Of a DNA stretch of 31,651 bases, positions 1,327 to 24,693 are shown piece after piece; positions within the stretch are counted from its first letter, which is position 1, and every line of letters begins with the position of its first letter. Where the stretch lies: IMG/VR virus record IMGVR_UViG_3300023257_001668, positions 1 through 31,651 of that record, one strand, 5' to 3'. This DNA is from a virus. The position numbers were made by a program, and so were the translations under genes. Below the pieces are notes generated by a model that made no database searches, had not been told where the DNA came from, and was given only the letters and a program-made list of their open reading frames with translations.

Positions 1327-2138
1327 TAAGAAACCCCCAATGAAACATTCTCATTAACAGCTATTCCGTCTAGTCCAATCTCGATATACTTTGGTTGCGG
1401 ATTATAATGTTTAATGAATACAGAATAATCTATTTTAGAAACTCCTTTGTTTCCTATCGAATAAACTTTTTTATAAACTCCAGCACTTGAATCATAAATT
1501 AAATAACACATTCCCGCAAAAAGTCTCACCTGAGTAAAGGTCGTCTGACCCATTATATCCCAAAAGGCTACAGGGAACATTGAGGCGATATAATCAAATG
1601 TAGTGGCATCTCCATTAGTTAAATTTCCCGCCGTCCAAGCCGTCATTTGCCCGTTCGCTTTATTATGCTCATAATAATTTTCACTTGAATCCATATAAGC
1701 AATAGCTTGAGGATAGACGCTTACTAAAAGCTCAATATTCGTTATCGCATAAGTAAACTCAACAGGAAACAATAAAACTCCAACATCCGCTAAAGGAACA
1801 GCACCTAAATCTGAAAGAGCTATGTCTGTTCCATAAGTCCCGTCTACATTTAAAGCGTTAGGCATCGTAACCCTTCCCGCACTAAAAATCGTAGAAACAT
1901 CTGCAGTTAAAATGGTGAACAAATTTTCATCAACAGGACTTATAATTTTAACTCCATAAACCTTTATATCTAAAGTGACACTCTCGCTTACTATAATAGT
2001 TTCGCTTCTATCTAAAACTTCTCTTTCTACTTCGTCTACGTCAATTAAAATAATATAATCATATGCAAATATCGCTAAAGCGCTTATTTCGTTTTCTTCA
2101 GCAATCGATATAGATTCATATAATAATGGTAAATCCAT
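1326..2138 (-). CDS. Tail-tip accessory protein with N-terminal acidic repeat and a module shared with the next gene
   Basis: A 270-aa protein whose ATG overlaps the stop of the J-like gene (TAATG), with AGGAG about ten bases upstream. Residues 1-65 carry diverged copies of the window's acidic repeat (LPLLYESISIAEEN at residues 3-16; SETIIVSESVTLDI further on). Residues about 70-240 form a module paralogous to the middle of the following gene: shared NxDGTYGxxI, MTAWTAG and RLFA-MCY/MYY signatures, in the same order. Lacks signal peptide or catalytic motif. Probably a structural protein at the tail tip, receptor-binding or baseplate-like. This is inferred from the J-adjacent location; the family is not one I recognise. 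Confidence 0.6.
   Translation of the reverse strand: MDLPLLYESISIAEENEISALAIFAYDYIILIDVDEVEREVLDRSETIIVSESVTLDIKVYGVKIISPVDENLFTILTADVSTIFSAGRVTMPNALNVDGTYGTDIALSDLGAVPLADVGVLLFPVEFTYAITNIELLVSVYPQAIAYMDSSENYYEHNKANGQMTAWTAGNLTNGDATTFDYIASMFPVAFWDIMGQTTFTQVRLFAGMCYLIYDSSAGVYKKVYSIGNKGVSKIDYSVFIKHYNPQPKYIEIGLDGIAVNENVSLGVS
1944..2138 (-). repeat. Acidic SI-x-I-x-E repeat segment in the protein after J
   Basis: The first 65 residues of the 270-aa protein match the repeat of the giant 13549-19023 protein: a Pro, then VY/LY, then ESISIAE, and again SETIIVSES followed by a D-I-x-V strand. The copies are degenerate, with an irregular spacer between them. At DNA level a short stretch near 2105 (cgatatagattcat) is identical to one in the repeat part of the gpM-like gene near 7101. 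Confidence 0.55.
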
Positions 2139-5100
2139 TAGCTAACATCTCCTAAAACTACAACTAGATTTCCGCCCGCATCATAAATCTTTAAAGAGTC
2201 TCCAGACATTTCAACTCTTGGATTAGTCGCTGAAGTTCTAATCGTAAAACCTGTTAATGTTCCTACGTTTATTTTATCCGCATTCAAATTTAAAATTTTA
2301 GCAGACGTAATAATAGCATCCTTAATCTGAGCCGAAAGAGTTATTAATTCTCCTGTATAAAGTTTCCCTGCGGTAACAGCTTCGGCTGCTATTTTGCCCT
2401 CGGTAACAGCTAAATCTGCTAGTTTATCTGTAGTTATTGAGCCATCTTCTATCAAAAATTCGGAAAGAGGGTCAAAACTAATAGTCTTTTCAGAGGAGAA
2501 AGAACCCGCTCCGTAAGTATCTACCCCTCGAACCTTGAAAAAAGCTCTATCAGTTAATGCAAATTCATCCCCTACATCAGGCGTTCCAGAAGGCCAAGAT
2601 GCTACAGTAACCTTTCCCGTAGAATCGTCGTAAGCCGTCGCTATAGCTACTTGGTCTTTATATGTTCCTGAAGTTTGTCTAACATAATCATGCTTAAACT
2701 CATCTGTTCCTGAGCCTATTAATTCAGCATCCGTAATACTAGTCGCATCTACTGCATCAGCTTCGGCGTTCACAGATGTTTTTCCTTGAATGTTAGCTTG
2801 AGTACCTTTAACTTTTTTTACAAGAAATTCTTCCCCGGCCCAAGCCCCAGTTTCCGATTGATAGACTTCGTAATATTGAAGGTCAACATCTGCCGAATCG
2901 CCCCAATCAAGGGTAGCCATCCCGAACCAAACAGTATCGGTGACGGTAGGAGCTGCAGGCGCAGAATTAGTTGGAGTAACATTCTGGGCCGTAGCCGAAT
3001 AACTTCCACTTGTATTATAGGACTTAATGTAAATCGTGCCGGGCGTTCTCGAGGCGGGCTGATAAGTATAACTATTTACCAAGCCTCGATAGATTAAATC
3101 AGCACTATCTACTCCCCAACTATTATCAGCACTTCTTATTTCATATCCCGCTAAATCATTATTAGTTATTTTATCCCAAGTAAGTTCTAAATCATCATCA
3201 AAATTAGAGGCGAAATTTGCTACATCTGAAGGGATAGCGGGCAAACCTGATAAAGTAATATCATCATAAGGACTAGCACTTAGTTGATTTTCTTCTCCGT
3301 TGACGGTAATGGTAACAACTCTTACATAATATTTATTCCCTGATTTCAAATCCCCTTGAATCCTAAAATGAATATCATTAGATTCCCCTCTAAGGGCCCA
3401 GTTTAAATTGTCTTCGGATATATAAATTTTAACATGGTCGAATTGTCTAATAGCGTCTGTCATAGCAGGTTTATACCACCATACATCTATAGCTTCCTCT
3501 ATAGTTCCATCGGGCATAGTCGCTAATCTTTCAGTAAGAGCTAAATCGGACACATTAGGAATTGTTAAATCAAGAGCAGAATACTTTGTATCAGGAATAT
3601 CTACGGCTGTATCATCATAAATATCACTTTCATATTCAGTTCCAGTAACGTTTACGCCAAAGTCTCTATCTCGACCCATAGAAATAATACGAAAATCTTT
3701 TTTAGGAGCAGTTGATATACCGAAAGCATATGTATCATAAATCTGTGGGGCTTGAGAAAAGGCATCTCCTACAACTTCTATTATGCTCGTCGTTCCCACG
3801 CCCGTACTTACAACCTTTTCCTCAATCGTATCATCAGCAAATTGAACAAGTAAATGATAAGTTCCAGCAGCTAAAGTAACATTTCTATCTAAAACAACTT
3901 TGGTCGTAGTGGATGAGCCTTTAACCCTACCCGAATATCCCCATTGAGTAACGTCGTGAGAAAAAGAAATTAAATCACCAGCTTGACAAGCTACCGCATC
4001 TATGCCAGCCCCAAAAGATATAGTTTTGTTAATATATTTAGATTGCTTTAAAATATATCTAGCTTCCCTTAAAGCATAAGAAGACTTTGTAGTAAATATT
4101 TTAATAGTCCTTTTCCTCAATGGGTCTCCGGCAGTAAGGGCTACTTCGTCTATATAAGATATAGTCTCCTGTTTATAATCTTTTTCCTTGTCTAAAAACT
4201 GAACATCTATTACGTTAGGCTTATCTTTGATAGATTTCCAAGACTGACTAAAACTACCTTTCTGAACATTTCCCATTGTGAATAACTGAACGGCTGTATC
4301 AGGCTTATCTATTCTTACATTAATAGTTCCATTAGAATAAAAAGGTAAACCTCTAAAGGTAACACATAATTGAGAAATTAAATCCAAGGCTCTCGTAACG
4401 CTATCCAGAACTACATCTAATCTATATCTCTTTTCATAGCCTCCGGCTCCGTCGTCAATTTTTTCTTCGCAGACCTTAGACATCTCCACCGAAAGAGAAG
4501 CGTTTATCATATTTGTATCAATAAATTCTCCAAGTCCGAATCTTGTGTTTACCATTAAATCTTTTAAGCACCAAATCGGATTAGCGCAATATTGCTCTTC
4601 ATAAGTTACCCCATCCCAAGTCAAAGCAGCTCCGCTTGCAAGAAGTTTATACTCAGCAGTAGAAGAATCATAATAATAATCCGCCCAATCTACATGAGTA
4701 GCGCCATTCATAACTTTAGGGCAAGATATCTTTTTTCCTTTTACAACGCAAGTAAAATTAGGCATACCTCCTGATAACTGGTCATCCGCTAAAGCTTCGA
4801 CGCCTAATAAAGCTGTATTAGGATATCTAAAATCATCTGTCTTAATCTCATCTAATTGATTCCAAGTTAAATCTCCTTGTTTTATCGGACTAAGCTGAGA
4901 ATCATCAGAAATTCTAGTTACCTTTATATCGTATTGTCCAGCAGTTAATCCTGTTTTGCGATAAACTCTTTTAACTACTGCCCGTGATTTAGCCGTGATA
5001 GTTGTCTCACCTAAATTCGTGTATGAAGGGTCAGCGTGAAGTTTGTATTCAACCTTATAGGTAACAGCCCAATCGAGAATATTTCCAGTAGCATCTTGCT

Positions 5101-5893: not shown

Positions 5894-5905
5894 CAAAAAC
5901 TCCTA

Positions 5906-6322
5906 TTATAGATTATCTTCATTAAGACCATCCTCGTACCGATAAATACCTGTTAATCTCTGCTTCCAAACATTTCTCAATCTCGTTATTATAACCCCGA
6001 CTGAACTCCCTTGAATAAATTCATCATTACTTAAATACACTCCTGCATGATAAGTCCTTCCGTTACCGTCGGAGAATAAAAGAATATCTAAAAATTTAGG
6101 GGTCGTTTGTTTAACCCATTTCTTATAATAATGTTCTACAAAATAATCTTTTCCATTTTTCGCCCAATCTTTTTCATAATTCATATCAAATAATTCAATA
6201 TTTTTAATCTCTCTATAAATTAAAATAGGAAGCCCCCAACAATCAAGTCCGTCTAGGGTTCTTCCCAAGTGCTTATAAGGTATTCCAAGATATTTTGTTC
6301 TGACCTCTATTTCTTTTGTCAT
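5906..6322 (-). CDS. NlpC/P60-type tail peptidase (lambda gpK-like)
   Basis: A 138-aa protein of the C40 cysteine peptidase family. Such tail-tip domains cut peptidoglycan peptides during DNA entry or act in tip assembly. The motif LDCWGLP places the catalytic Cys at residue 28, and YHAGVYL gives the catalytic His at 92; the spacing between them and the length are normal for the isolated NlpC domain. Lambda gpK also has a JAB-type metalloprotease domain, which is absent here, so this is the short form. It lies between the L-like and J-like genes, exactly where K sits in lambda. The ribosome binding site is weak (AGG nine bases before ATG), which fits translation coupled to the upstream gene, which ends five bases away. 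Confidence 0.88.
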   Translation of the reverse strand: MTKEIEVRTKYLGIPYKHLGRTLDGLDCWGLPILIYREIKNIELFDMNYEKDWAKNGKDYFVEHYYKKWVKQTTPKFLDILLFSDGNGRTYHAGVYLSNDEFIQGSSVGVIITRLRNVWKQRLTGIYRYEDGLNEDNL

Positions 6323-6327
6323 AACTT

Positions 6328-6939
6328 TTAACCTATTACTATACGTTTTGACGGGATAGAAGGAAATCCTCCAAATCGTTCTGAATTGGCTAGTACCCTA
6401 CATCTCGCCAAAGTTTTATTGCATTCTGTTTCCCCTGCCGAATACCCACACTCAGTAGATTTAAACTTCCAATTACAAAAATTTCTTGAATATTTTCTGG
6501 TAGGCAACCCTATTCCCAATATATCAAATTTACTTGTCAAGAGAAAAGACGCATTATCTTGATTACTAGAATAACTATCTATATAATAAGTATCAGTTAT
6601 ATTTGCATCTGCGTCGTCTAATTTATCGGCAAATATCTGAATAATGGATACTTTTTTCCCTCTCCAATCATAATCTTCAAGATAAGCTTGAACAAGCCGA
6701 GAAGCGTTGCCGAGTTTAATGCTAACACTATCTATTTCTCCAGTAGTGTTCTCTCCTATCGTCTCGTGAGTAATAGGACATTTTACATATGCTTGGCCAG
6801 AGTAGACAATAGATGTTTTATGATTAGTGTAATAAAGATTATTACTAGCTCCATCCCAATCATATATTATATATAGGAAGATAGGCTGATTCGCTTCGGC
6901 ATTTTTTCTAGTTATAAAATCTGAACTTGGTGTTCTCAT
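6328..6939 (-). CDS. Lambda gpL-like minor tail protein with four-cysteine cluster
   Basis: A 203-aa minor tail protein. In lambda, gpL is a tail-tip component that binds an iron-sulfur cluster through four C-terminal cysteines. The same pattern is visible here: Cys155, Cys164 (TECGY), Cys173 and Cys180, followed by FGGFPSIP, which parallels the FGGF end of gpL. Only one other Cys is present (Cys54). The N-terminal part is beta-rich and matches the usual region before the cluster. ATG overlaps the stop of the M-like gene by one base (TAATG). Family assignment rests on the Cys motif, length and gene order; cluster binding is known for lambda and inferred here. Confidence 0.85.
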   Translation of the reverse strand: MRTPSSDFITRKNAEANQPIFLYIIYDWDGASNNLYYTNHKTSIVYSGQAYVKCPITHETIGENTTGEIDSVSIKLGNASRLVQAYLEDYDWRGKKVSIIQIFADKLDDADANITDTYYIDSYSSNQDNASFLLTSKFDILGIGLPTRKYSRNFCNWKFKSTECGYSAGETECNKTLARCRVLANSERFGGFPSIPSKRIVIG

Positions 6940-7622
6940 TATGCAGGCGCTCCTATCGTATCATCTTCTACTATGGATATACCATCATTTACATCTATCC
7001 TCGCTAGAATTTCGAACAACCCTACATCTTCCGCTACCGAAACAGCATCATTTATCCCTAATTCTATAATAGGGTCATACATCGAAATAGATTCTATCAT
7101 CGATATAGATTCATAAACAGGGCCTACTTCGACGGTAATGTCAAAAAGGTTAGCATATTCAGAAATTGATACTGATTCATACTCATTAAGCCATAGAGCC
7201 ATATCAAACATTTCATTATATTCTGAAATGGCTATATCTTCGTTTACGTCTATTACGCAATAAGCTCCAAAAGGAAATTCAAGACCTAAAGAAACTCTCA
7301 TTCTAAATGTATTATATGCAATTCTCTCCCTAGACATTGTTGATTCTTTAAATCTAACGTCATATAATTTTCCATCTAAAGGATTTGTAAATTTAAAAGC
7401 TTCATATTTACCATTTCTTGCTTTAAAAAAGTCCAAAATATCTTGAGACTCAGTCAAAGTTAATGGAAAGAAATTTAAAACAAAGGCCATATGGTCTTGT
7501 TCGTTTATAAGTCTATATTGCTTATCTCCATTTTCGAACACAGTTTCTTGAACGTCATAACCCGTTTCGTCCGTGAATGGATAATTTCTTGTAAACTGAC
7601 CGAAATCCACTAAGGAAGCCAT
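6939..7622 (-). CDS. Lambda gpM-like minor tail protein with C-terminal acidic repeat extension
   Basis: A 227-aa protein starting at ATG 7622 directly after the tape-measure stop, with GGAGGG seven bases upstream. Residues 1-118 resemble minor tail protein M, which joins the tape measure end to the tip: typical lines are ILDFFKARNGKYEAFKFTNP and a final beta strand FRMRVSLGLEF. M proteins normally end there. Here residues 126-222 add four to five copies of the acidic repeat (NEDIAISEY, YESVSISEYANLF, DPIIELGIN), ending in a short IGAPA tail. DITVEVGPV and DPIIELGI recur letter for letter in the giant protein. The extension would project a decoration from the tail tip; that role is inferred. 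Confidence 0.82.
   Translation of the reverse strand: MASLVDFGQFTRNYPFTDETGYDVQETVFENGDKQYRLINEQDHMAFVLNFFPLTLTESQDILDFFKARNGKYEAFKFTNPLDGKLYDVRFKESTMSRERIAYNTFRMRVSLGLEFPFGAYCVIDVNEDIAISEYNEMFDMALWLNEYESVSISEYANLFDITVEVGPVYESISMIESISMYDPIIELGINDAVSVAEDVGLFEILARIDVNDGISIVEDDTIGAPA
6957..7247 (-). repeat. Four to five acidic repeats fused to the gpM-like protein
   Basis: Units of 20-23 codons, each starting [DE]-x-[IV]-[SA]-[IVM]-x-E, at residues about 126-222. Bases 7053-7081 are identical over 29 bases to 13702-13730 in the giant repeat gene, so the two arrays share recent ancestry or recombine. Confidence 0.85.
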
Positions 7623-13268: not shown

Positions 13269-13552
13269 TATGCCCTCACTTTTACGAAGATTTTATCTTC
13301 ATAGATATGACCACCAGAAGTAGTCGTTAAAAATGTAACCCAATACTCGGCTCCGTCAGCTCCTCCTTTGACCACCTGAGAAACTTTAGTAGCCTCTACT
13401 ACGGGCGAGCCATCAACAACAAGCCCGCCAGAAGGACTTATGGATACCGTGCAAGAGGCTAGGGTTGCGCCCTCCGTTAAATCTGGGCTTATATATTCAA
13501 ACCCTATAGAAAATTGTTCATTAGGCTTCTTTACTACTATTGGAATTTTCAT
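13268..13552 (-). CDS. Small Ig-like fibre/tail-adaptor-type protein
   Basis: A 94-aa beta-sandwich-like protein: strands around FSIGFEYISPDL, LASCTVSISPSGGL, VVKGGADGAEYWVTFLTTT and IFVKVRA. The closing lines (GADGAEYWVTFLTTTSGG) are typical of a short phage protein family often annotated as fibre-tail adaptor, found just before connector genes and after fibre-related genes. Here it is coupled (ATGA) to the giant repeat gene, which suggests that it may attach the giant protein to the virion. That link is inferred. Confidence 0.65.
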   Translation of the reverse strand: MKIPIVVKKPNEQFSIGFEYISPDLTEGATLASCTVSISPSGGLVVDGSPVVEATKVSQVVKGGADGAEYWVTFLTTTSGGHIYEDKIFVKVRA

Positions 13553-16500
13553 ATTCTCGCTCCTTGATATTCTATTTCAGTATCAGTTTTATCCGCCGTA
13601 AATATCCGCTTTCTAGGAGTAGCCGTAAACAGTAACGGGAATAAATCCCAATAGACTACACTTTCAAAAATATCCTCTTCTACAACAATTATATCATAAA
13701 CTATCCCTAATTCTATAATAGGGTCATACAGCTCCGCATCTTCGGTTATAGATATAGAGTCGGAGGAATTAACTTCAATTTGAATATATGCTTCTATGCT
13801 TTCAGAAATAGAAACATTATCAAAAATCTCTACATCAGCCTTTGTCACGATAGAAGCGTATTCATTAATGGCTATATCTTCGACGGCAGATAACTCAACG
13901 ATAATATCCCAAACTGTAGCTGCTTCTATTATAGATATTAAATCATATATATTTACATTAAGGTATGTCGAGTATAATCCAACGTCTTCGCCTGTAGAGA
14001 TATTGTCTAAAACCTCTATATCTAACCCAAAATAAATAGATGCGTTTTCTATTAAAGATATATTTTCAATAGCCTCTAACTCTACGCTAATATCTAATAA
14101 AAGGACATATTCACTTATGCTGATATTATCAGCTATGCTAATATCTACATCTACATTTCCATTAATATTTTCGGTTATCGTTATCCCTTCAAAAACTAAA
14201 GGAATGTCTATCTCAATATCCCATATATTAATATTTTCGGCTAAAGATATAGAATCAAATGCATCGATATTTGCATCTAGCTCAAATTGACTTATATATT
14301 CTGAGATGATAATGCCATCATAAACTAAAGGAACGTCTATTTCGATATCCCATATATTAATATTTTCGGTAAGAAATACGGAATCAAATACATTAAAATT
14401 AGTTTCAATCTCAAACTTCTCCACAGCCTCAACGATTGAAATATTATCATAAACAATAGGCAAATCTATGATAATATCCCACATATTTATGTATTCAGTT
14501 ATAGAGATATTATCATTTACGATTGCATCAAGTTCATAATAAAAATTAACGCTTTCAGCAAGAATTATTTCTTCATAGACTATTCCCAATTCTACTATAG
14601 GGTCATATATACTAGCGAATTCTGTTATATTAACACTCTCTATTACATTTAATTCTATATTTATATCCGCATTAACATTTTCCAAGATAGATATATTATC
14701 AAAGGCCACAGGTAAATCAATTTCAATATCTAATAAATCAGTATATTCAGCTATTAAAATATTTTCATTTACTTCAATATATATAAGAATCTCAAAATCA
14801 ATATTTTCTAATACCGTTATTCCGTCATAAATGCTTAAATTAAAAATATAATCAAATTTTATAGATTCCGATATAGACATTTCTTCGTAGACATTAAGAG
14901 CTTCAAATATATAATCAGTTTCTATATTTTCAGTTATAGTTATTTCATCATAAATAACTGGCAGGTTAATCTCTATATCGAGCAAATTTGTATATTCTGC
15001 TATAGAAATAGCGTCGCTAATATTTATATATGTAAGAATATTAAAACTTGCATCTTCGAATATCGCTATGTTTTCATAACTAATAGGTAAATTAATTTCA
15101 ATATCCCATAAATCAACATATTCAGCTACCCCAATAAAATCTAATACATCTATTTCGACCACCAAGTCAACATCATCTTCGTCTACTATAGCCATCTCAT
15201 CATAAATATTAAGGCCTGAGAAAATATATTCAGAAATAAAATCTTCGATTATATTTATGGCTTCGTAAACAGGCCCAAGCTCTATCGAAATATCTAATAA
15301 ACTTGTAAACTCAGTTATAAATATCTCTTCGTATACATTCATGCCAACAAATAATTCTAAAGAGACTAGTTCAGAAATTAAAATTGATTCAGAGGAGATT
15401 GGAATATCTATTTCAATGTCTAATATATTAATATTTTCGGTTATGGTTATCGCCTCATAAACCATAGGAAGGTCTATCTCAATATCATGGAGATTGATAT
15501 TTTCGGTTAGGGAAACTGATTCAAAAACATCAACATTTGAATCTAATCCGAATTGACTTATATTTTCTGCGATTGTTATATCATCAAAAACTAAAGGAAT
15601 ATTTATCTCAATATCGTGAAGGTTAACGTCTTCCGAAAGAGAAATTGATTCGATTGCCTCAATATTTGAATCCAATCCAAAATCCGTATATTCAGTTATT
15701 GTTATGTCATCATTTACCGATATATTTGAGAAGATTGTAAAATCTACAAATTCAGATATTGAAATTTCTTCGTATGTTTCTAAATATAAAACATCGAGAA
15801 GCATATCGATATCTTCCAATGTTCCTATTTCCTCATATTCCGATAAAGGTAGAGCGGGAGGATATTGCTGATTCCATTCCGTTATAGAAATAGAATCATA
15901 AATTTCTGCATAAAGTTCTGTTAAATACTGGTCTATATCTTCAACTATCGAAATAGAATCGTAAACAATTCCAACTTCAACAATAGGGTCAAATGCTGAC
16001 GCAGACTCCGTAATAATAATCAAGTCGTAAACCTCTAAATAAAGCTCCGTCAATAATAAATCTATATCCTCGACTATAGATATAGAATCATTTACATCAA
16101 CCTCTATAGATATTTCAAATGAACTTAAATATTCTGAAATAGTTATTTCATCATAAATAGACAATCCTTCAAAAATGTAATCAAATGCTATATCTTCTGA
16201 AACATATATATCATCATAAACCACAGGAACATCAATAATGATATCGTGTAAAACTATATCTTCTGTGATAGAAATCACATCACTAACGTCTATTCCAAAA
16301 AGAATCTCAAAATCTGTAGATTCAGTTATTGATATACTCTCGAAAGAAAGCGGAATATCAATCTCAATATCCCATATATTAATATTTTCAACGAGAGAGA
16401 CTAATTCATAAACTATTGGTAAATCAATTTCTATATCCCACATATTAGCGTATTCAACAAGCGAGATTAACTCAAATATATTAATATTTGCATCTAATTC

Positions 16501-19023
16501 AAACTGGCTTATATATTCAGTTATTAATATGCTATCGAAAACTATAGGGATATCTATTTCTATATCCCACATATTGACATATTCGGTTATTGTTATTTCT
16601 TCGTAGACTATTGGTAGGTCTATTTCGATATCGTGAAGATTAATATCCTCTGTTATAGAAATGGAATCAGACACATCAATACTTGCTTCTAATTCAAAAT
16701 TAGTATATTCCGTTAGATTTATGCTCTGACTTTCTGACGGTAATAAAACATCTAACAATGCTTCTATATCTTCAGATATTACTATAGATTCATAAACAAT
16801 GCCAAGCTCGATTATGGGGTCAAATAATTCTGCATCCTCTAAAACAGAAATATATTCTGACGGTTGGATTCCGATACCGATAGTAATTGAACGAATACAA
16901 ACAACATCTCTTTCCTCCCAAATAATAAAAGTGCTGCTCATTCCGTGGTCGGACTTAGCTAAATTTGTTCTGACTGCTTGGGTAGCTGTAGTTGTAGCTA
17001 AAATAATTCCAGAATGAGAATTATCGGCTAATAGCTCTAAATCATAATATATATTTGAGGTATCTCCTGAATCTCTAACCCAAGAAGTAATTGCGTAAGC
17101 TTCTCCAAAGAAACTTAATGCTGGGTGCCTACAATCTGTATTTGAATCTAAAACTATCTCGGCAGCTAAAACCCCATCGTAATCTCTATGGCATACAGTC
17201 CCATCACTCTTGAGATAACACATATGTACTTCATAATCTATTAAATCTGTTCCCGCATTGAAATTGTGCCCCCAAGTTCCAACCTTTATAGTGGCAACAG
17301 AGATAGGACCTACCCAAGCGTTTCCAGTATAATGGTCTAATTGTAAAGACGAACCTTCAGAAAAAAGAATTGTTGTATCATCATTATTTTTATTATCTAT
17401 CCTCGATACTTCTGTTTTACATAAAGCCTCGTTATTAGTATCCCCTATTACATCTTCTGTGCCCCAATTATCAATCCTATTTTTAAATGTTGATTCAATA
17501 GCTACCGCATATTGTTTTACTCCATTATGTTCCGTAGCGCTAACCCAATATTTTCCATCTGCTGCGTGTGTGATAGAAGGTGCATCATAAGTGTTGGAAA
17601 CATCTGTCAATATTGTTCTAACAGTATCCCAAGCAAAATCTATAGCCGGATATCCTGTCATCAATCTTCCATAAACCACGCCAGCAATAGCATAAATAAT
17701 AACTCCATGGTCATCACCAACTAATACAGAAAAATCATTAAATATACCCGCATCCGTTACTCTTGCAGAAACATTCTCAGTCCAAACACCATCGGGATTA
17801 GTAGTATATTCAAATTGTAAATACCTTCCTGTCCTATTATAAAAAGCTCTCCAATAATAAGTTCCATCATAAAAAGCAGCGTGTTGAGTCAAATAAGGCA
17901 AACATCCAGCAGTAGCTTTAATGGAAACATCTTCTGATATTGAGATTGATTCGGAGACTGGTCCCACTTCAACGGTAATATCGAACATAGAAACCGACTC
18001 AGCTATTCCGATAGAATCATAAACACTTGGAAGGAGAACATCTAACGAAATTTCATCATCTTCTACCAAACTTACCGAATCATACGAAGATACGTTTAAT
18101 TCAATAAGGTATTGACTTGTATCTTCACTCACGGACGCAGTATCATTCACCCCTATGTCTATGTCTATATATAGGGAAATAGCCTCTGTAACATCAACCT
18201 CATCATAATTAAAGCTATATAATAGGGGTAACAGCATAAAATCATATTCTGATAGAGATATCGCCTCGTATTCGGAAATATTGAGCTCTGACAGAAGGGT
18301 TTCCGAAGATTCGGCTATCGAGACAGAATCATTAACACCTATATTCGTAATAATCTCTAATAGGCTTATATTTTCAGCTATCGAGACAGAATCATATTCT
18401 GTAATATTCAAATCAGGAATCAAAACTTCTACATCTTCTGCTATCGAGACAGAATCATTAACAGATAAATTGAGAACGTCTAGAAGGGAAGATTCATCTT
18501 CGGCAATCGATATTTCTTCATTAACAGATAAGAATAAAACATCAAGAAGTATATTCGCATTTTCTGCTATCGATATATCTTCTTTTACTATTCCTAATTC
18601 TACTATTATGTCAAAGACTGAAGAAGATTCTGTAATAGTTATTAAATCAAATTTTTCAATATTAAGTGCAGGTTCCAAATCAAGGAGCTCGGCATCTTCT
18701 GTAATAGAGATTGAATCAAAAACATTCAAGTTGTATTCAAGAAGTAAATTTATATCTTCTGATAAAGAAGCTTCATCATAAACCACAGGAACATCAATAA
18801 TGATATCGTGTAAAACTATATCTTCTGTGATAGAAATCGCATCATATATATTTATATCCAAATCTCCTACTTCTGAAGACTCATTGGCTACAAATGGTTG
18901 AGCTTGATAGGCTACATCCATTTCAGCCAATGTTACTGAGACCTTAGACGCCACATAAACAAATGGTTGGGCTTTAAAAGCCATATCCATTGTCTTTAAT
19001 TCTGTAGGTGTAGGAAATGCCAT
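13549..19023 (-). CDS. Giant acidic repeat fibre with central beta-propeller-like domain
   Basis: A 1824-aa protein, the largest in the window. Residues 1-53 contain two copies of MD-x-A-[FY]-x-AQPFV. Residues 54-371 hold about 15 repeats of 20-23 aa. Residues 372-719 form a Trp/Tyr-rich globular domain with propeller-like blade lines (for example PSITHAADGKYWVSATE, YAITSWVRDSGDTSNIYY). Residues 722-1785 hold about 51 more repeats. Residues 1786-1824 form a basic tail with FTATPRKRIFTA, like anchor ends of other phage fibres. Repeat consensus is about [DE]-x-I-x-I-x-E-x(6)-DI-x-I-x-x-P-x-VY. Lys and Arg are almost absent from the repeats, making the protein extremely acidic. No signal peptide or transmembrane segment. 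AAGGA precedes ATG, five bases after the previous stop. Most likely a long virion fibre or adhesin; the repeat family is not one I recognise. Confidence 0.75.
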   Translation of the reverse strand: MAFPTPTELKTMDMAFKAQPFVYVASKVSVTLAEMDVAYQAQPFVANESSEVGDLDINIYDAISITEDIVLHDIIIDVPVVYDEASLSEDINLLLEYNLNVFDSISITEDAELLDLEPALNIEKFDLITITESSSVFDIIVELGIVKEDISIAENANILLDVLFLSVNEEISIAEDESSLLDVLNLSVNDSVSIAEDVEVLIPDLNITEYDSVSIAENISLLEIITNIGVNDSVSIAESSETLLSELNISEYEAISLSEYDFMLLPLLYSFNYDEVDVTEAISLYIDIDIGVNDTASVSEDTSQYLIELNVSSYDSVSLVEDDEISLDVLLPSVYDSIGIAESVSMFDITVEVGPVSESISISEDVSIKATAGCLPYLTQHAAFYDGTYYWRAFYNRTGRYLQFEYTTNPDGVWTENVSARVTDAGIFNDFSVLVGDDHGVIIYAIAGVVYGRLMTGYPAIDFAWDTVRTILTDVSNTYDAPSITHAADGKYWVSATEHNGVKQYAVAIESTFKNRIDNWGTEDVIGDTNNEALCKTEVSRIDNKNNDDTTILFSEGSSLQLDHYTGNAWVGPISVATIKVGTWGHNFNAGTDLIDYEVHMCYLKSDGTVCHRDYDGVLAAEIVLDSNTDCRHPALSFFGEAYAITSWVRDSGDTSNIYYDLELLADNSHSGIILATTTATQAVRTNLAKSDHGMSSTFIIWEERDVVCIRSITIGIGIQPSEYISVLEDAELFDPIIELGIVYESIVISEDIEALLDVLLPSESQSINLTEYTNFELEASIDVSDSISITEDINLHDIEIDLPIVYEEITITEYVNMWDIEIDIPIVFDSILITEYISQFELDANINIFELISLVEYANMWDIEIDLPIVYELVSLVENINIWDIEIDIPLSFESISITESTDFEILFGIDVSDVISITEDIVLHDIIIDVPVVYDDIYVSEDIAFDYIFEGLSIYDEITISEYLSSFEISIEVDVNDSISIVEDIDLLLTELYLEVYDLIIITESASAFDPIVEVGIVYDSISIVEDIDQYLTELYAEIYDSISITEWNQQYPPALPLSEYEEIGTLEDIDMLLDVLYLETYEEISISEFVDFTIFSNISVNDDITITEYTDFGLDSNIEAIESISLSEDVNLHDIEINIPLVFDDITIAENISQFGLDSNVDVFESVSLTENINLHDIEIDLPMVYEAITITENINILDIEIDIPISSESILISELVSLELFVGMNVYEEIFITEFTSLLDISIELGPVYEAINIIEDFISEYIFSGLNIYDEMAIVDEDDVDLVVEIDVLDFIGVAEYVDLWDIEINLPISYENIAIFEDASFNILTYINISDAISIAEYTNLLDIEINLPVIYDEITITENIETDYIFEALNVYEEMSISESIKFDYIFNLSIYDGITVLENIDFEILIYIEVNENILIAEYTDLLDIEIDLPVAFDNISILENVNADINIELNVIESVNITEFASIYDPIVELGIVYEEIILAESVNFYYELDAIVNDNISITEYINMWDIIIDLPIVYDNISIVEAVEKFEIETNFNVFDSVFLTENINIWDIEIDVPLVYDGIIISEYISQFELDANIDAFDSISLAENINIWDIEIDIPLVFEGITITENINGNVDVDISIADNISISEYVLLLDISVELEAIENISLIENASIYFGLDIEVLDNISTGEDVGLYSTYLNVNIYDLISIIEAATVWDIIVELSAVEDIAINEYASIVTKADVEIFDNVSISESIEAYIQIEVNSSDSISITEDAELYDPIIELGIVYDIIVVEEDIFESVVYWDLFPLLFTATPRKRIFTADKTDTEIEYQGARI
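13669..16860 (-). repeat. Repeat block 2 of the giant protein, about 51 units
   Basis: Tandem units of 60-69 bases (20-23 codons). Two length classes alternate in places: 22-23-residue units containing DIEIDLPIVY and 20-21-residue units containing QFELDANI. Five successive units at about 16340-16670 have no Lys or Arg at all. Several pieces of 20 or more bases recur, for example one around 14218, 14345 and 16367. Confidence 0.9.
16211..16276 (-). repeat. Copy A of a 66-base exact direct repeat
   Basis: Identical over 66 bases to 18773-18838, both inside the giant gene and in the same orientation and reading frame. Encodes ISITEDIVLHDIIIDVPVVYD in both places. Identity at every third base too, while neighbouring units have drifted, points to recent duplication or gene conversion. 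Confidence 0.93.
17911..18864 (-). repeat. Repeat block 1 of the giant protein, about 15 units
   Basis: N-terminal array before the central domain. Units open with the same [DE]-x-[IV]-S-[IL]-[AST]-E core but are more divergent in the second half (for example LLDVLFLSVN, LIPDLNITEY), so this block probably has an older or separate history from block 2. Confidence 0.9.
18773..18838 (-). repeat. Copy B of a 66-base exact direct repeat
   Basis: Partner of 16211-16276. The offset is 2562 bases, which is 854 codons exactly, so recombination between the copies would keep the frame and remove the rest of block 1, the central domain and the first units of block 2. Confidence 0.93.
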
Positions 19024-19027
19024 TTAA

Positions 19028-19273
19028 CTATTCCTTTTTATATAGTAGTTCTTTTAATCCAAGATTCTCTTTTTCTAATCTATTTATTTTATCAATATCA
19101 CTTTCTTCTATTACTTCATTATTTTTATTTTTTATAAATTTATCCACCTGTACAAAAACTTCTTCGTCAGTAGGCTCAGATTGAAACTTAAAAAATTGAG
19201 CTTCTTCCTTGGTTATAGAAACTCTTACTCTCCACTTTCCTGCCATATCTTTATATTTTTCTACTATTTCCAT
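19028..19273 (-). CDS. Small protein with C-terminal coiled coil
   Basis: An 81-aa protein with AGGAG seven bases before its ATG, between the tailspike-like gene (stop nine bases upstream) and the giant gene. The N-terminal half (KWRVRVSITKEEAQFFKFQS) looks like a small beta/alpha fold. Residues about 60-81 (DKINRLEKENLGLKELLYKK) are a leucine-zipper-like coiled coil that could trimerise. I do not recognise the family. A role in assembling or joining one of the flanking fibre proteins is plausible from its place. Confidence 0.6.
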   Translation of the reverse strand: MEIVEKYKDMAGKWRVRVSITKEEAQFFKFQSEPTDEEVFVQVDKFIKNKNNEVIEESDIDKINRLEKENLGLKELLYKKE

Positions 19274-19281
19274 AATATCTC

Positions 19282-21741
19282 CTATGCTTGAGTGATTGTC
19301 ATATCATCTACATATACACTTTCAGTTGTTCCACCATATGCCCATGCCTCTATTTCTACTACACCTGCTTCTGTAGGAGTAAATGTTATTTCTAACTCTT
19401 CATAATCAGTATCATCAGCTTTTGTATCAGTTACATCAGTCGCAACTCCTGCTATTTGCCCACCTTTACAAACCAATTTTGCTACTATAGTTGTTGCATG
19501 GGATTTTTTAACCCAAGCATTTATCGTAACTAAAGAGTCTGCTGCACATGCTACTTTTGCTATACTTAAATCTAATGGATAATTTGAATCTCTTAAAACA
19601 TTAGTAGGCGATAACTTCCAACATATACCAGAAGCTGTATGACGATTAGTTATATCACTCGTAATAACTCCATTATCCGTATAAATATAGTGATTATCAG
19701 GTGTTCCATCATGATTTGTAGAATATAGTTTTGAATTAGCATAATCCTTGGCAGAGGAAAATTCAGTCCCAGCTATTGAACAGTTATTCAAATAAGATAT
19801 TAAAGTATCATTCCAAACTCCAGCAATATCCATACTACTTATTGTGGCTGAATTTATTTTCCAATTATTAACATTATTAAGTTTAATACCGTAATTTGAA
19901 TGTTTACATTTAGCTATTTCATTAATAATAGCATTTCTTCCATTTGTACTATAAATATTACTATTTGAGTTATTACAAGTCTCATGAATTTTAGTTATTT
20001 TAACATTATAACCACTCATCTCTATTCCTGCACTCTGATTATTGTTTGCTTTATATATATTTTCTATAGAATAACTCGTACCAGAAAATTTTATTCCGCT
20101 TGAACCACAATTATTTGAAAACCATACATTAGTTATTATTGCACTACTTGAAAATAGATACAAAACATTATATATACAATTTGAACCAGAAATATTTGTA
20201 TAAGTTATATGTGTTGAACCATTATCAAGTACCCCCCACGAACACCTGATAATATTAATATAATTTATTGTTATATAACTTTGGGAAAAAATTAAACCCT
20301 GAAAACTTCCATCTCGTCCATCAAAAAAGGTTGTTCCATCCTGTATTGTTGTACTGATATTATACCCAGCTTGAAACTCTATATTATTTCCTGATATCCC
20401 AGCATCTTGGATTATTTGCTGAGCAGTTAATTTTATAGTTTCTCTTTTGTATGTAGTAACTGTTTCTGTTGTTCCTGAATAACCACACCCTCTTGTCGTT
20501 ATACCTTCATTTGGTTTTGTATCTGGTGCATTATCTAATTTTATTATTGTTCCATCCTCACTAATACTTTGAATTCCATACCATCCCTCCGAATCACATT
20601 GTGCAGCAGAACTTTTAGAAATTAAACTTTGTAAATTTAATCCAGATGTAGTGCAAGCAAGAATATTATCAAAAAGCATGTATGAAATATTAGCAGGGGC
20701 AGCACTATCAGTATAAAAAGCTATTGATTTAATAGAAGCACCTAAATTTCCTCCGCCTTCTTTTATAATACATTGCGGACCAAATCCTTTTATTCCTGCG
20801 GGAATAAGAAATGTATCTACTGGAGTTGCTCCTGCGATATCGGAGCATAAACATATCTTTACCTCACTTACTAAAGTTGTTGTATAACTTTTCATCCAAA
20901 ATGATATTTTTTGATAGCTTGAAAAATCCGTATCTGATATTTCAAAATAAGCATATAAAGTATCGTTAGCAGGAGAATTTTTAACTATTTTTACAGAAGC
21001 ATCTCCTTCTTTATAATAAGAAGTATCTAAAGTAACTGTTGAAGTATTAGCTAATGTCCATAATTCTTCACATCGAGTAATTGTTTTAGTTTGTGCTGTA
21101 GCAAGTTTAACTGCATGCCAATCTATTTTAGTAACATCTCCAGTAGCACCACCGACACCTACCCCTATAGAACCCTCTAATTCAAAAGTATCATCTGCTT
21201 TATTAGCTACTGTCCAAGTCCCATTTGCTGTTAAATTAGTAGTGTGATTTTGTATGTAAACTATATCTCCATTAACATATCCATGTCCAGTAAGTGTTAC
21301 TACTATAGGAGTAGCATTAGTAGAACTTTCTATATCTTGAGAAGTAGGTAATGTATCTGGAGCATCTGTCCAAGTTCCATTACAACCTAATGAAGTAGGG
21401 TCGGGTGATTTAGCTATTCTTATTACATCACCCGGCACTATTCTTGCAGCAGTTGGCCCCGCTGTTATAGTTTTCCAAGCGTTAGCCCAATCTGAGCCAT
21501 CATTCACATCATCTCCATTTTCATAATCTAAATAATAAATAGTATTACCTGTAGACCAATGTAAGATTCTATTTACAAATCCAGAATATGACCTATGCCC
21601 TCCCATTAAATTTTCTATACCTAAAATAAATTTTCGGATAAAATTTATATGCCCTATTTCGTAACCAAAAAATTTATCCCGAAAAGTTTCACATATCTTT
21701 TTAATAATCAACTCATAAGATTTTAATTTTTTTGATAACAT
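19282..21741 (-). CDS. Tailspike-like protein: beta-helix with binding modules
   Basis: An 819-aa protein with a strong AAGGAGG site before ATG 21741. Residues 1-65 are basic and helical and could be a virion-attachment part. IYYLDYENGDDVNDGSDWAN (68-87) is the typical opening of a right-handed parallel beta-helix (pectate-lyase-like) tailspike. Interrupting it is a small domain with TLTGHGYVNGDIVYIQN and ANGTWTVANKADDTFELEG, like the E1-FCCH-type insert found in phage proteins. A jelly-roll-like module follows (around SFWMKSYTTT). Residues about 450-680 are rich in Asn and Ile with short repeated strands, fitting beta-helix rungs. The last 110 residues resemble a carbohydrate-binding module ending in VYVDDMTITQA. 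Depolymerase activity is possible, but no catalytic pair can be assigned by eye. Confidence 0.78.
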   Translation of the reverse strand: MLSKKLKSYELIIKKICETFRDKFFGYEIGHINFIRKFILGIENLMGGHRSYSGFVNRILHWSTGNTIYYLDYENGDDVNDGSDWANAWKTITAGPTAARIVPGDVIRIAKSPDPTSLGCNGTWTDAPDTLPTSQDIESSTNATPIVVTLTGHGYVNGDIVYIQNHTTNLTANGTWTVANKADDTFELEGSIGVGVGGATGDVTKIDWHAVKLATAQTKTITRCEELWTLANTSTVTLDTSYYKEGDASVKIVKNSPANDTLYAYFEISDTDFSSYQKISFWMKSYTTTLVSEVKICLCSDIAGATPVDTFLIPAGIKGFGPQCIIKEGGGNLGASIKSIAFYTDSAAPANISYMLFDNILACTTSGLNLQSLISKSSAAQCDSEGWYGIQSISEDGTIIKLDNAPDTKPNEGITTRGCGYSGTTETVTTYKRETIKLTAQQIIQDAGISGNNIEFQAGYNISTTIQDGTTFFDGRDGSFQGLIFSQSYITINYINIIRCSWGVLDNGSTHITYTNISGSNCIYNVLYLFSSSAIITNVWFSNNCGSSGIKFSGTSYSIENIYKANNNQSAGIEMSGYNVKITKIHETCNNSNSNIYSTNGRNAIINEIAKCKHSNYGIKLNNVNNWKINSATISSMDIAGVWNDTLISYLNNCSIAGTEFSSAKDYANSKLYSTNHDGTPDNHYIYTDNGVITSDITNRHTASGICWKLSPTNVLRDSNYPLDLSIAKVACAADSLVTINAWVKKSHATTIVAKLVCKGGQIAGVATDVTDTKADDTDYEELEITFTPTEAGVVEIEAWAYGGTTESVYVDDMTITQA

Positions 21742-21773
21742 TCCATCCTCCTTCTAAGGATTGTTTTATAAAT

Positions 21774-21805
21774 AAAAACCCTATGGATATAATTATCCAT
21801 AGGGT
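21774..21805 (-). terminator. Intrinsic terminator before the tailspike gene
   Basis: A perfect 12-bp stem (accctatggata and its complement, 21778-21789 and 21794-21805) with a four-base loop, followed on the minus strand by TTTT-A-TTT. It lies 33 bases before the tailspike start, so tailspike expression from any upstream promoter must pass it. Confidence 0.85.
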
Positions 21806-21849
21806 CTATAAAATTTTTCTTTATTAAGATAAACGGATAATCTTTGCAT
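21793..21849 (-). CDS. Possible 18-aa leader peptide ending inside the terminator
   Basis: ATG 21849 has AGGAGAAAG directly upstream with good spacing and opens 18 codons (MQRLSVYLNKEKFYRPYG). The TAA stop falls at the loop edge of the terminator stem, so a ribosome finishing this peptide would cover the 5' arm of that stem. The peptide has no known relative that I can name. It could be a chance ORF, but the strong start signal and stop placement together are notable. Confidence 0.35.
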   Translation of the reverse strand: MQRLSVYLNKEKFYRPYG

Positions 21850-21882
21850 TCTTTCTCCTAATGCTAAAGATAACCGCTTAAT
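21823..21882 (-). promoter_or_regulatory. Long imperfect hairpin with a ribosome binding site in its loop
   Basis: About 20 base pairs with small bulges join attaag...cggataatctttgcatt (21823-21850) to its near complement at 21860-21882. The nine-base loop (21851-21859) reads AGGAGAAAG on the minus strand, the ribosome binding site of the 18-codon ORF. The structure lies between the 68-aa gene and the terminator, and may control translation of the leader peptide. The rest of the gap (21883-21951) holds only one more small stem, aatcac/gtgatt, near 21895-21920. Confidence 0.5.
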
Positions 21883-21951
21883 CTTCAAACAGGACTTCCC
21901 CGAATCACCCTATAAGTGATTTGGTCGCCTCGCTATCATCAAATCAAACGA

Positions 21952-22158
21952 CTATTTGTTTGCTCTAATAACTATAACGACAGGAAGCTGAGTCTCTTTA
22001 CTCAACTGCCACCCTGCTGATACAATCCTACCACAATTTTCGACCTTTGTCAAATGAAGGGTCCCGGCTAGCCCACCAATTCCCTTGACAACCTTTTCTC
22101 CAAAAGAATCTTTTGATTTAATCTCTTCGTTTACATTTATGCCTAAATCTTCTCCCAT
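21952..22158 (-). CDS. 68-aa protein of unknown function
   Basis: AGGAG lies about eight bases before ATG 22158. The sequence starts acidic (MGEDLGINVNEEIKSKDSFG), then has a Gly-rich piece VKGIGGLAGTLH, a single Cys in VENCGRIVSAGW, and a C-terminal strand LPVVIVIRANK. No signal peptide and no clear motif. It stands between the glycosyltransferase and the leader/tailspike region, separated by 57 bases from the former. I do not recognise the family and assign no function. Confidence 0.55.
   Translation of the reverse strand: MGEDLGINVNEEIKSKDSFGEKVVKGIGGLAGTLHLTKVENCGRIVSAGWQLSKETQLPVVIVIRANK
22025..22053 (-). promoter_or_regulatory. Possible sigma-70-type promoter inside the 68-aa gene
   Basis: On the minus strand TTGACA (22053-22048), a 17-base spacer and TAGGAT (22030-22025). 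It would start RNA near 22018 and feed the leader hairpin, terminator and tailspike gene. The -35 is perfect and the -10 matches four of six. Being inside coding sequence, it may be chance. Confidence 0.35.
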
Positions 22159-22213
22159 AAGTCTATCTCCTAGATTTTAAGGTAATAAAACTGAGAATCA
22201 AAACTACTCTGCT

Positions 22214-23029
22214 TTATGGATATTTCTTTCCATTCTCATCGATATGTTTACAAAACATTGACGTATCGATTAAAAATGGATATTTCTTTTTCTGAAACTT
22301 TTTATATTTTTCTACTCCACATTTCTCGAAAACTTTTTCATTTTTCATTCTGTCACACCAGAATAAATCTTCTGTTCCTGTTCTTCGTTCATAAGTCATC
22401 TTCTCAGGGTCGAATTTAGCTTCTCTCGGAGTTTCAAAGACTCTTCTGACAACAACTGGCCCATAAAGCGTATTACAAGTATAAACCTCTGATGCATCAT
22501 ATAAAACTCTTAACATCGAAGCATGAATAAGAGTGCATCCCATTGGAATGCCATCCGCCCAAACCTTTTCACCGGGCTTCCAATCCGTAAAGCAACCGTT
22601 TCCCCTACCTCTAAACACTAAAGGCTCGGGATGACTACCTTTACAATAATATAATCCAGAAACTACAGGAATATCTCCTTTAGTCATATATTCATTTATC
22701 TTTAAATAAGTATCAGGTGGTAATATAACATCATGGTCTATAAAAAATAACCACTCAAAGCCTTGACTTAAACAATATTCTACACAAATATTTCGTGCAT
22801 CCGCTACCGCCCAACCCATAGGGCTAAACTGGTCATAAAATTGAAACATATCTCCGTTGCTCCAATTACAAGGAATGACTTGTCCAAATCTAGCCATCAT
22901 CCATTCTACCCTAACTAAACCTGTAGTCGGAACGGCAATACAAATTCTTTTCTTCCATCCCGCCCATAAATCTCTTTTAGGGCCAAACATTTTTGGTTGC
23001 ATTAAATTAGTTATAGACTTCTTTCCCAT
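22214..23029 (-). CDS. GT-A-fold glycosyltransferase-like protein
   Basis: A 271-aa protein. I choose ATG 23029 (MGKKSITN), one base after the upstream stop with AGGGGAGGG nine bases before it; a longer frame would add 23 residues inside the preceding gene. The N-terminal strand KRICIAVPTTGLVRVEWM (27-44), ADARNICVEYCL, and FFIDHDVILPP with a DHD (98-100) in the place of the metal-binding DxD, then VVSGLYYCKG, are those of family-2-like sugar transferases. The C-terminal part has TGTEDLFWCDRM, like the ED motif near the catalytic base. Donor and acceptor unknown. Coupled to the methyltransferase upstream, so the two may act on one glycan. Confidence 0.75.
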   Translation of the reverse strand: MGKKSITNLMQPKMFGPKRDLWAGWKKRICIAVPTTGLVRVEWMMARFGQVIPCNWSNGDMFQFYDQFSPMGWAVADARNICVEYCLSQGFEWLFFIDHDVILPPDTYLKINEYMTKGDIPVVSGLYYCKGSHPEPLVFRGRGNGCFTDWKPGEKVWADGIPMGCTLIHASMLRVLYDASEVYTCNTLYGPVVVRRVFETPREAKFDPEKMTYERRTGTEDLFWCDRMKNEKVFEKCGVEKYKKFQKKKYPFLIDTSMFCKHIDENGKKYP

Positions 23030-23030
23030 A

Positions 23031-23591
23031 TTATTTGCCCTCCCCTTCTCTTCTCTTAGATAATATGATTTCCATATTACCCATTTGATAATATACATTT
23101 CGTTCTAATTTCCAAGGCTTAGGCCTATAAACTTCATAAAGAGCTTGGGTAGGGTCAAAATAAGTAAAAGTATTTTCATTCATAAAATTACAATGACTAG
23201 GGTCTTGAAGCATTCCATCACTACGGCCATAGGGACCTGATATCAACAGTTGTCCTTCTGGCTTCATTATTCTCCAAAGTTCATCCATTACAGCAAGCAT
23301 CCTTTTAGGACAAATATGCTCCATAAGATGACTCATTAAAATAGTTCTGCAAGAATCTTTCGGAATAGGATAAGGAGTATCTTCTACATTATGAAGAATG
23401 TCTACACCCTTAACGTTCCTTATATCCATTCCAAGATATTTAGGCTGTTTAGAAAAACCGCATCCAATATCTAATTGGATTCCGCCGTGTTGTTTTGATT
23501 TTTGTTTAAATAAAACTTTTACTTCTGATAAGGATTTACAAATGGTAGGAATTTTCTTTTCTTTCTTTCGAACTTTTTTTCGCACTTTCAT
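23031..23591 (-). CDS. SAM-dependent methyltransferase
   Basis: A 186-aa class I methyltransferase. I choose ATG 23591 because GGGAGGT lies six bases upstream; an ATG 15 bases earlier has none. The start is strikingly basic (MKVRKKVRKKEKK), perhaps for binding nucleic acid or acidic virion protein. Motif I is LDIGCGFSK (40-48), the acidic residue after strand 2 is in YLGMDIRN, followed by SHLMEHI and a KPEGQLLISGPYG line typical of Methyltransf_11-like enzymes. The substrate is unknown, with a sugar probable from the neighbours. Confidence 0.85.
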   Translation of the reverse strand: MKVRKKVRKKEKKIPTICKSLSEVKVLFKQKSKQHGGIQLDIGCGFSKQPKYLGMDIRNVKGVDILHNVEDTPYPIPKDSCRTILMSHLMEHICPKRMLAVMDELWRIMKPEGQLLISGPYGRSDGMLQDPSHCNFMNENTFTYFDPTQALYEVYRPKPWKLERNVYYQMGNMEIILSKRREGEGK

Positions 23592-23650
23592 TAAGACCTC
23601 CCTCAATCATTAAATATTTTACATCATTACATTCGAGATGATGCCCGAAA

Positions 23651-23675
23651 AGAGGCTATGTGAGTAGCCTCTCAC
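23651..23675 (-). other. Two overlapping alternative hairpins in a 113-base gap
   Basis: An 8-bp stem agaggcta (23651-23658) / tagcctct (23665-23672), followed on the minus strand by TTT only, could be a weak terminator. A second 5-bp stem gtgag (23660-23664) / ctcac (23671-23675) shares bases with it, so only one can form. The gap between the 153-aa gene and the methyltransferase (23592-23704) holds nothing else that I recognise. Confidence 0.4.
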
Positions 23676-23704
23676 GGAATTAATTTTCTATAAAAACCTT
23701 AATC

Positions 23705-24166
23705 TCAACTAAACCTTAATTGGTATGTTGCATTTACATTTTGATTACTTGCCCATTGAGAAGTAGCATATGTAGTTCCACAAAGAATAGTCCCTGCTGC
23801 GGATAAATCACATAAAGCTACATTTTGAATAGCACAACTTGCTGCGCCCAAATCTGAACCCGCAAATTGACAAGTCGCCTGCATCGTTTTAGAAGCTATA
23901 ACAGTATTAGAGGTTGTTACCCTCGCACCCGTCTCACCTTCTAAGCCAGTTGCAGTAACGCCGGGCGCTGTTCCTGTTCCAATGGCCATATAAGCTACTT
24001 GAACACTATTAGCTAGAGCACCAACCAAGGCGCAGATATACCATTCAAAACCTTCATTGACAACGGTATTCCTTTTCCAACCAGAGTCTCCTATAATACG
24101 GTCTTTTTTATCGACTATTTGGGTTCTCACAAAACCCTTTACACTGAGCATCTCTCCTCTTCTCAT
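23705..24166 (-). CDS. Small virion/fibre-type structural protein
   Basis: A 153-aa protein. ATG 24166 is chosen because AAGGAGG stands seven bases before it. The pattern is a beta-rich phage structural domain: YMAIGTGTAPGVTATGLEGE (residues 60-79), a middle of strands, then VALCDLSAAGTILCGTTYAT and a closing strand ATYQLRFS. Similar domains are common in tail-fibre and other virion proteins of environmental phages. It has its own promoter directly upstream, the best in the window, so it may be needed in larger amounts or at another time than its neighbours. Confidence 0.65.
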   Translation of the reverse strand: MRRGEMLSVKGFVRTQIVDKKDRIIGDSGWKRNTVVNEGFEWYICALVGALANSVQVAYMAIGTGTAPGVTATGLEGETGARVTTSNTVIASKTMQATCQFAGSDLGAASCAIQNVALCDLSAAGTILCGTTYATSQWASNQNVNATYQLRFS

Positions 24167-24211
24167 CTTCGTTCCTCCTTAGTTTAAGATACCCTCAAAC
24201 TCACCGACACA

Positions 24212-24240
24212 ATGATAACATATTAGAGACAATATGTCAA
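24212..24240 (-). promoter_or_regulatory. Sigma-70-type promoter with a palindrome in the spacer
   Basis: Minus strand TTGACA (24240-24235), exact 17-base spacer, TATCAT (24217-24212). Predicted RNA start near 24205, 39 bases before ATG 24166. The stop codon of the upstream gene lies within the -35 box. Bases 24218-24237 form a perfect inverted repeat acatatt-n6-aatatgt that fills the spacer, suggesting an operator for a dimeric regulator. Confidence 0.7.
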
Positions 24241-24554
24241 GAAAGTTTAAGAGAACGTTTAACGGTTATAGCAAAATCTTTCGTAGTAACTTTTTTTGAC
24301 GCACTATACTGCAAGACTAATCCTCCTGTATAGTTTCCTTCATTATCAAAATCACCACTTTGAGTAGTATATTTACAAGTTCCGGCTGAAGCTAGAACGA
24401 CTTCGCAAGTTCCATTTAAAATATTCAAATCCGTATCAACTTGCCTAACCCTAAAGTAAATAGCCCCTATATCAGTAAGATTGACCACCACTCCGTCTGA
24501 GTCTTTGACAGTAAAACTTATTTCATACCCATAGTCCCCAATTCTTAATTCCAT
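24237..24554 (-). CDS. Ig-like baseplate/fibre-type protein (BppU-N-like)
   Basis: A 105-aa beta-sandwich-like protein: IGDYGYEISFTVKDSDGVVV, LTDIGAIYFRVRQ, TCEVVLASAGTCKYTT and FAITVKRSL. The line KDSDGVVVNLTDIGAIYFRV resembles the N-terminal immunoglobulin-like domain of phage baseplate upper proteins, which mount fibres. Two Cys near residues 45 and 55. AGGTG precedes ATG by four to five bases. Lies after the 38-aa gene and before the promoter at 24.2 kb. A structural role is likely; its exact partner is unknown. Confidence 0.62.
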   Translation of the reverse strand: MELRIGDYGYEISFTVKDSDGVVVNLTDIGAIYFRVRQVDTDLNILNGTCEVVLASAGTCKYTTQSGDFDNEGNYTGGLVLQYSASKKVTTKDFAITVKRSLKLS

Positions 24555-24576
24555 AAATCACCTATTCCCTCAAACT

Positions 24577-24693
24577 TTATTCGTCAAGAATAACGTTTAT
24601 ATCAAAATTATTTATTTCAATAGTTTCAGATGTAGAAGGAATTTCTACATCTATATCAAAATTATTAGTCTCTATATTTTGGCTTTTAGACAT
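24577..24693 (-). CDS. 38-aa microprotein made of the acidic repeat
   Basis: ATG 24693 lies inside the end of the epimerase gene (22-base overlap), with AAGGAA upstream; stop TAA at 24577. Two copies of NNFDI[DN]V 18 residues apart frame the segment PSTSETIEI. The stretch DIDVEIPSTSETIEI matches DIEIDIPISSESILI of the giant protein at eight of fifteen positions, the rest mostly conservative. It is thus a single repeat unit plus flanks, possibly a seed or a remnant of an array. It has no Lys or Arg except Lys3. No function can be given. Confidence 0.5.
   Translation of the reverse strand: MSKSQNIETNNFDIDVEIPSTSETIEINNFDINVILDE

Follow-up and report, generated by a model that had tools for sequence, protein, structure and literature searches.

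The DNA analysed here (the window) comprises 31,651 bases, is a virus record of IMG/VR and comes from a tailed virus. On the minus strand, glycosyltransferase and methyltransferase genes are followed by the genes for an 819-aa fibre-like protein (p819), an 81-aa protein, a giant protein (13549-19023) and a 94-aa protein, then by the connector/neck genes and by those for the major tail protein, the tape measure, a gpM-like protein (6939-7622), gpL-like and NlpC-like proteins, J and a 270-aa protein. A near-identical contig carries portal, MuF-like, protease and HK97-type capsid genes (called by eye, from sequence and order) immediately upstream of this gene set. The overall order is capsid, glycosylation genes, p819 fibre, giant, connectors, tail. 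The giant is thus encoded between the capsid and the connectors, an interval in which fibres of the head or neck are expected, and is probably a head/neck fibre.

The repeat and its carriers

The giant begins with a tandem motif (aa 1-47, 'TELKTMDMAFKAQPFV...LAEMDVAYQAQPFV'; 18883-19023, minus strand) that is conserved in Methanosarcina virus MetMV and in the related viruses L059, L061, L062, L069 and L073, with different sequence downstream. A first array of about 15 units of 20-22 aa comes next (17896-18861; HMM units at aa 67-364). It is separated by a non-repeat insert of about 340 aa (16879-17895), for which sequence searches of Pfam, phage proteins and the PDB gave nothing, from a second array of 47 HMM units and a few undetected ones (13669-16878; HMM units at aa 729-1761). 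A C-terminal tail past the array (13549-13668) completes the sequence.

The repeat profile (HMM), seeded with 49 units of the giant, was used in a six-frame scan. It detects 62 units in this protein, spaced by 20, 21 or 22 aa, and a few further ones lie in gaps of 41 aa. Asp or Glu is found at position -6 in 61/62 of these units and the anchor Glu in 62/62, a figure that is partly imposed because the seeds were required to have E. The repeat is indeed acidic, as the earlier note on this DNA had stated: D+E and K+R amount to 23% and 0.4% in the giant arrays, and to 22% and 0.9% in the array of the gpM-like protein. The profile gave no convincing match in the rest of a longer contig, G002.

The gpM-like protein occupies the Dit position in the order TMP-Dit-gpL-NlpC-J and shows sub-threshold matches to DUF2460 (PF09343), to phage minor tail protein and to TIGR02217 (distal tail protein), from which it can be identified as the distal tail protein (Dit). 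Its core, of the DUF2460/TIGR02217 type (7254-7622, minus strand), is the point at which orthologs end. Beyond it, the C-terminal extension claimed by the earlier note is confirmed: five repeat units at aa 124-221, the last of them shortened, are closed by a 'TIGAPA' cap (6942-7253), and the profile matches them with E=7.6e-18.

Six Dit orthologs (L017, L022-L024, L038 and L044; 24-34% identity) lack the extension and stop where the array begins. The closest relative, L021 (81%-identical; J 80%, Dit 71-76% identical), has an extended Dit too, with six profile matches versus five in the window. On these sequence comparisons the extension is lineage-specific. Its first two units and the cap match in register between the window and L021, at 79% nucleotide identity per unit, and the units between them vary between the two viruses, in number as well as in sequence. 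Being present in both viruses, the extension predates their split, and its middle has turned over since then. Two units of the L021 Dit are near-identical tandem copies, with a 29-nt self-repeat that exceeds the null maximum of 26. When the L021 array was used as a query of the sequence collection, only already known viruses were returned.

The earlier note had placed the repeat on four genes of the window. It is clearly present on only two of them, giant and Dit. The third claimed carrier is the 270-aa protein encoded after J, which has an N-terminal extension of about 58 aa (1965-2138, minus strand). Here the six-frame scan gives E=0.82 and the HMM score is reached by 6/500 shuffles; the alignment score of the first 28 aa is reached by 0/200. 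The stretch holds a single 8-aa core (YESISIAE), one unit at the very most, along with degenerate sequence. Because these 58 aa are missing both from the L021 ortholog and from a 196-aa paralog in G002 (recognised as such by eye), they are a lineage-specific extension, whose match to the repeat is weak and whose kinship with it is no more than suggestive. The fourth candidate, a 38-aa microprotein (24577-24693, minus strand), exists as an open reading frame, but 292/500 shuffles score as high (HMM E=24) and the resemblance is attributed to chance. Thus, of the neck, tip and accessory positions that had been proposed for the repeat, two are supported: the giant accounts for the head/neck interval and Dit for the tail tip.

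Kinship and possible exchange between the giant and Dit arrays

Giant and Dit have five 8-mer peptide windows in common, against a shuffled maximum of 0, and seven 7-mers, against a null maximum of 1. Both of the exact peptides singled out earlier recur as described: DPIIELGI twice in the giant and once in Dit, and DITVEVGPV in the giant, in Dit and also in the L021 Dit, with codons that have diverged at synonymous sites. The reported 29-base identity is exact as well. It joins 7053-7081 in Dit to 13702-13730 in the giant and encodes YDPIIELGI, and the codons of the other giant DPIIELGI (aa 735) differ. When synonymous codons were shuffled within each gene (20,000 replicates, the giant being reshuffled every fifth replicate), an identity of 29 nt was reached in 9/20,000. 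Since the codons are identical in this tract and the other shared peptides are synonymously diverged, one recent copied tract is likely, laid over an older kinship at the protein level; the sequences suggest a single recent DNA-level copy between the two genes, with this tract as the only candidate. To that extent the earlier idea of a cassette copied between genes is supported. Routine copying is not supported, given the synonymous divergence of the other shared peptides and the orthology, position by position, of the first two Dit units with those of L021.

The tree of units that had been suggested as a check gave a compatible picture. Mean nucleotide identity between units is 0.466 within the giant versus 0.471 between giant and Dit, and the Dit label changes 4 times on the tree versus 3.95 in shuffles, so the units are not sorted by gene but intermixed, in a tree whose power is low because it holds only four Dit units at a mean identity of 47%.

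These data bear on the possibility that the repeats are ancient or convergent, 'xIxIxE' strands arising easily, and that giant and Dit gained them separately, without recent exchange. Arrays of similar style and different sequence in MetMV, L032 and L072 speak in its favour, as do the many synonymous differences between the two DITVEVGPV-coding stretches and the orthology of the first two Dit units with those of L021. Yet the giant profile matches Dit at 8e-18, and on the MetMV and L032 arrays it scores no better than on many of their shuffles; the seven shared 7-mers and the 29-nt identity likewise exceed their respective nulls. We consider this reading unlikely.

Copying is not restricted to neighbouring units. 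The longest exact self-repeat in the giant is 66 nt long versus a null maximum of 39, and a 94-nt segment (16189-16282) recurs at 91% identity 2.5 kb away, across the insert (18751-18844), which together indicate that non-tandem copying within the giant occurs. One could go further and suppose that short ectopic conversion tracts shuttle units between giant and Dit, so that two distant virion sites have a repeat surface in common and diversify it jointly, and that the arrays form a local recombination hotspot; we regard this as possible, but on balance doubtful.

Contigs nearly identical to the window reveal variation within the array. L005 differs from it at 22 positions over 13.4 kb, all of them in 15114-16022 of the second giant array; all are transitions, and 12 change an amino acid. 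Conversion from other units of the window was considered as their source and rejected, the longest donor matches being only 10-15 nt. As the L005 alleles are untemplated, they could have been imported from the allele of another strain, have arisen by mutation in place or reflect a chimeric assembly. The arrays of the window, L003 and L004 are identical where they overlap.

This bears on the proposal of the earlier note, read as an actively exchanged cassette that displays one binding surface at several places on the virion and swaps its variants. The presence of the module on two genes, the intermixing of units, the 29-nt run and the clustering of array differences between near-identical contigs would all be expected of such a cassette. 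Against it stand the untemplated L005 differences and the identity of the overlapping arrays; moreover, no binding module is recognised, and neither a binding function nor a fold could be assigned to the arrays, so that a shared binding surface is not supported. We judge such a cassette quite improbable.

Several contigs break in or near the arrays: L003 and L004 each have a terminus within the giant array, the array of Dit contains the start of L013, and L005 begins in the giant insert, just ahead of the second array. Array variants or shared words would cause such breaks in assembly, but the pattern is circumstantial, because these four contigs were found through the giant and Dit genes.

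The fibre locus in related viruses

The giant has the features of a QPFV protein family, namely two N-terminal copies of the motif and a gene that adjoins the p819 beta-helix-like fibre. In relatives, the N-terminal tandem 'MDxAFxxQPFV' has nothing after it in L059, L061 and L062, precedes Ser/Thr-rich sequence in L069 and precedes other repeats in L073. Less strict forms of the motif, together with further types of repeat, are present in L072 and L079. A distant virus, L032, has a 21-aa array of similar style immediately upstream of its connector genes. The suggested comparison with relatives has thus uncovered different array types on a homologous fibre gene.

The 819-aa protein itself (19282-21741) has homologs in many virus contigs and in MetMV, which often adjoin a protein with the QPFV motif. 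Relatives also come from a MAG contig of Candidatus Methanoperedens and from a Patescibacteria-binned contig; they do not fix the host of the window virus.

MetMV offers the closest parallel. Its giant homolog (AZF89921.1, 467 aa; neighbour AZF89914.1) lies directly downstream of the p819 homolog and likewise has the homologous N-terminal tandem motif followed by an xIxIxE-type array. As in the window, a second protein, AZF89920.1, terminates in a few similar repeats (HMM 9.4 bits, 0/500 shuffles, weak alignment to MetMV's own array); all relatives of that protein share this C-terminus, which is therefore uninformative about gain. Unlike the situation in the window, the MetMV array is diverged, belongs to a much shorter protein and is not on Dit. 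A 20-aa array unit is present in 1 copy in MetMV versus 3 in the relative on the Methanoperedens contig, in genomes that are 95-99% identical. This change in copy number, together with the varied repeat types found after one motif, indicates that both array type and unit number are labile at this locus.

The Ser/Thr-rich linker at the same place in L069, taken with the strongly biased composition of the repeat, could be read as meaning that the arrays are acidic low-complexity linkers of no specific function, kept by composition alone. Such a linker is hard to reconcile with the strict pattern of the units (the anchor Glu, even allowing for the E required in the seeds, and the acidic residue at position -6), with their period of 20-22 aa or with peptides that are kept despite synonymous change, and we hold it to be very improbable. 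A structural repeat is the preferred reading.

A putative beta-strand stalk and its known counterparts

When eight giant units are modelled with AlphaFold, each is predicted to form two strands and the structure is all beta (pLDDT 59, pTM 0.58); the model of the Dit array is of low confidence (pLDDT ~30). The two strands per unit invite comparison with solenoid or curlin-like folds; a fold search with the giant model, at this pLDDT, gave only non-significant matches among PDB and viral folds. From the model, the repeat is probably a structural module of about 21 aa comprising two beta-strands.

The explanation that we favour, and consider reasonably probable, is that of a modular beta-strand stalk common to the giant fibre and to an evolved Dit, whose units have been gained and turned over, with one tract copied. 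In this very acidic repeat, a pair of acidic residues (D/E ... E) would flank an 'I-x-I' strand, and units joined head to tail would form an extended stalk, making up most of the giant fibre and the five-unit C-terminal extension of Dit. The Dit extension would have been gained in the common ancestor of the window virus and L021, its units coming most likely from the unit pool of the fibre, a direction of copying that we infer. Subsequently, units would have been duplicated, lost and replaced, in the giant also through non-tandem copying, and one short tract was probably copied from one of the two genes to the other. The arrays probably serve to hold or space host-contacting surfaces off the head/neck and the tail tip. 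This spacer role is suggested by the length and repeat nature of the arrays, by the position of the genes and by the variety of substitutes in relatives; no family on the giant or Dit arrays indicates a binding activity. The acidity might provide cation-dependent stiffness or a surface interaction, cation binding by the acidic pairs being a guess.

The distribution of the module has a precedent in the lactococcal 936 phages, for which Hayes et al. (2019, PMC6669499) report carbohydrate-binding modules (CBMs) on the neck passage structure, on the major tail protein and on Dit. These CBMs are folded domains, two of them with tested binding, and their presence varies among relatives (PMC6669499). 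Here too, homologous modules of one accessory type sit on two virion proteins, one on the neck side and the other, Dit, at the tip. The differences are that the module is a 21-aa tandem repeat without a recognised binding domain and that its neck-side carrier is a giant fibre. The Dit protein also resembles the evolved Dit (evoDit) of siphophages, in that its core is encoded between the tape measure and the gpL/J genes and bears a lineage-specific addition that is absent from plain relatives. The evoDit proteins compared from the literature carry CBMs, unlike the C-terminal array of five short repeats described here, on which neither a CBM nor any other family match was found.

In the way the arrays evolve, the nearest counterpart is provided by crAss-like phages, whose tail-associated proteins bear tandem BACON arrays; according to de Jonge et al. 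(2019, PMC6949934), these evolve as domains are duplicated and transferred. Both cases involve tandem arrays on virion or tail proteins that evolve by duplication and transfer; the present unit, in contrast, is a 21-aa repeat rather than a whole domain, neither the giant nor the Dit array has a Pfam match, to BACON or to any other family, and the BACON study was not concerned with spread between the genes of one virion. The case thus resembles 936 phages in distribution and BACON arrays in array evolution, being new in sequence and known in principle. It is a compact instance of a virion protein gaining an accessory extension: the gain on Dit can be dated between relatives, a reservoir of 60 units within the genome itself is at hand for comparison with those of Dit, and close relatives reveal how units turn over. 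The fibre gene of the capsid-connector interval emerges as modular, with quite different repeat types joined to one N-terminal motif across related viruses.

A few further observations concern neighbouring genes. A large block of glycosyltransferase/methyltransferase/epimerase-like genes (21952-31402) has the capsid gene on one side and the fibre genes on the other and, given this block, the fibres could be glycosylated. In the window, a glycosyltransferase gene is intein-free (22739-22750), next to a 'FFIDHDV' motif. The same gene in the near-identical contig G001 is interrupted, in frame, by an intein of about 367 aa (PF14890, LAGLIDADG); the regions concerned are L003 5171-6272 and L088 7218-9209. 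The residue that follows the insertion, Leu in the window, is Cys in the intein allele, and a few differences flanking the insertion resemble a conversion tract. Finally, an HNH-like open reading frame lies between the NlpC-like gene and J in L015 (947-1459), at a place where the window has none.
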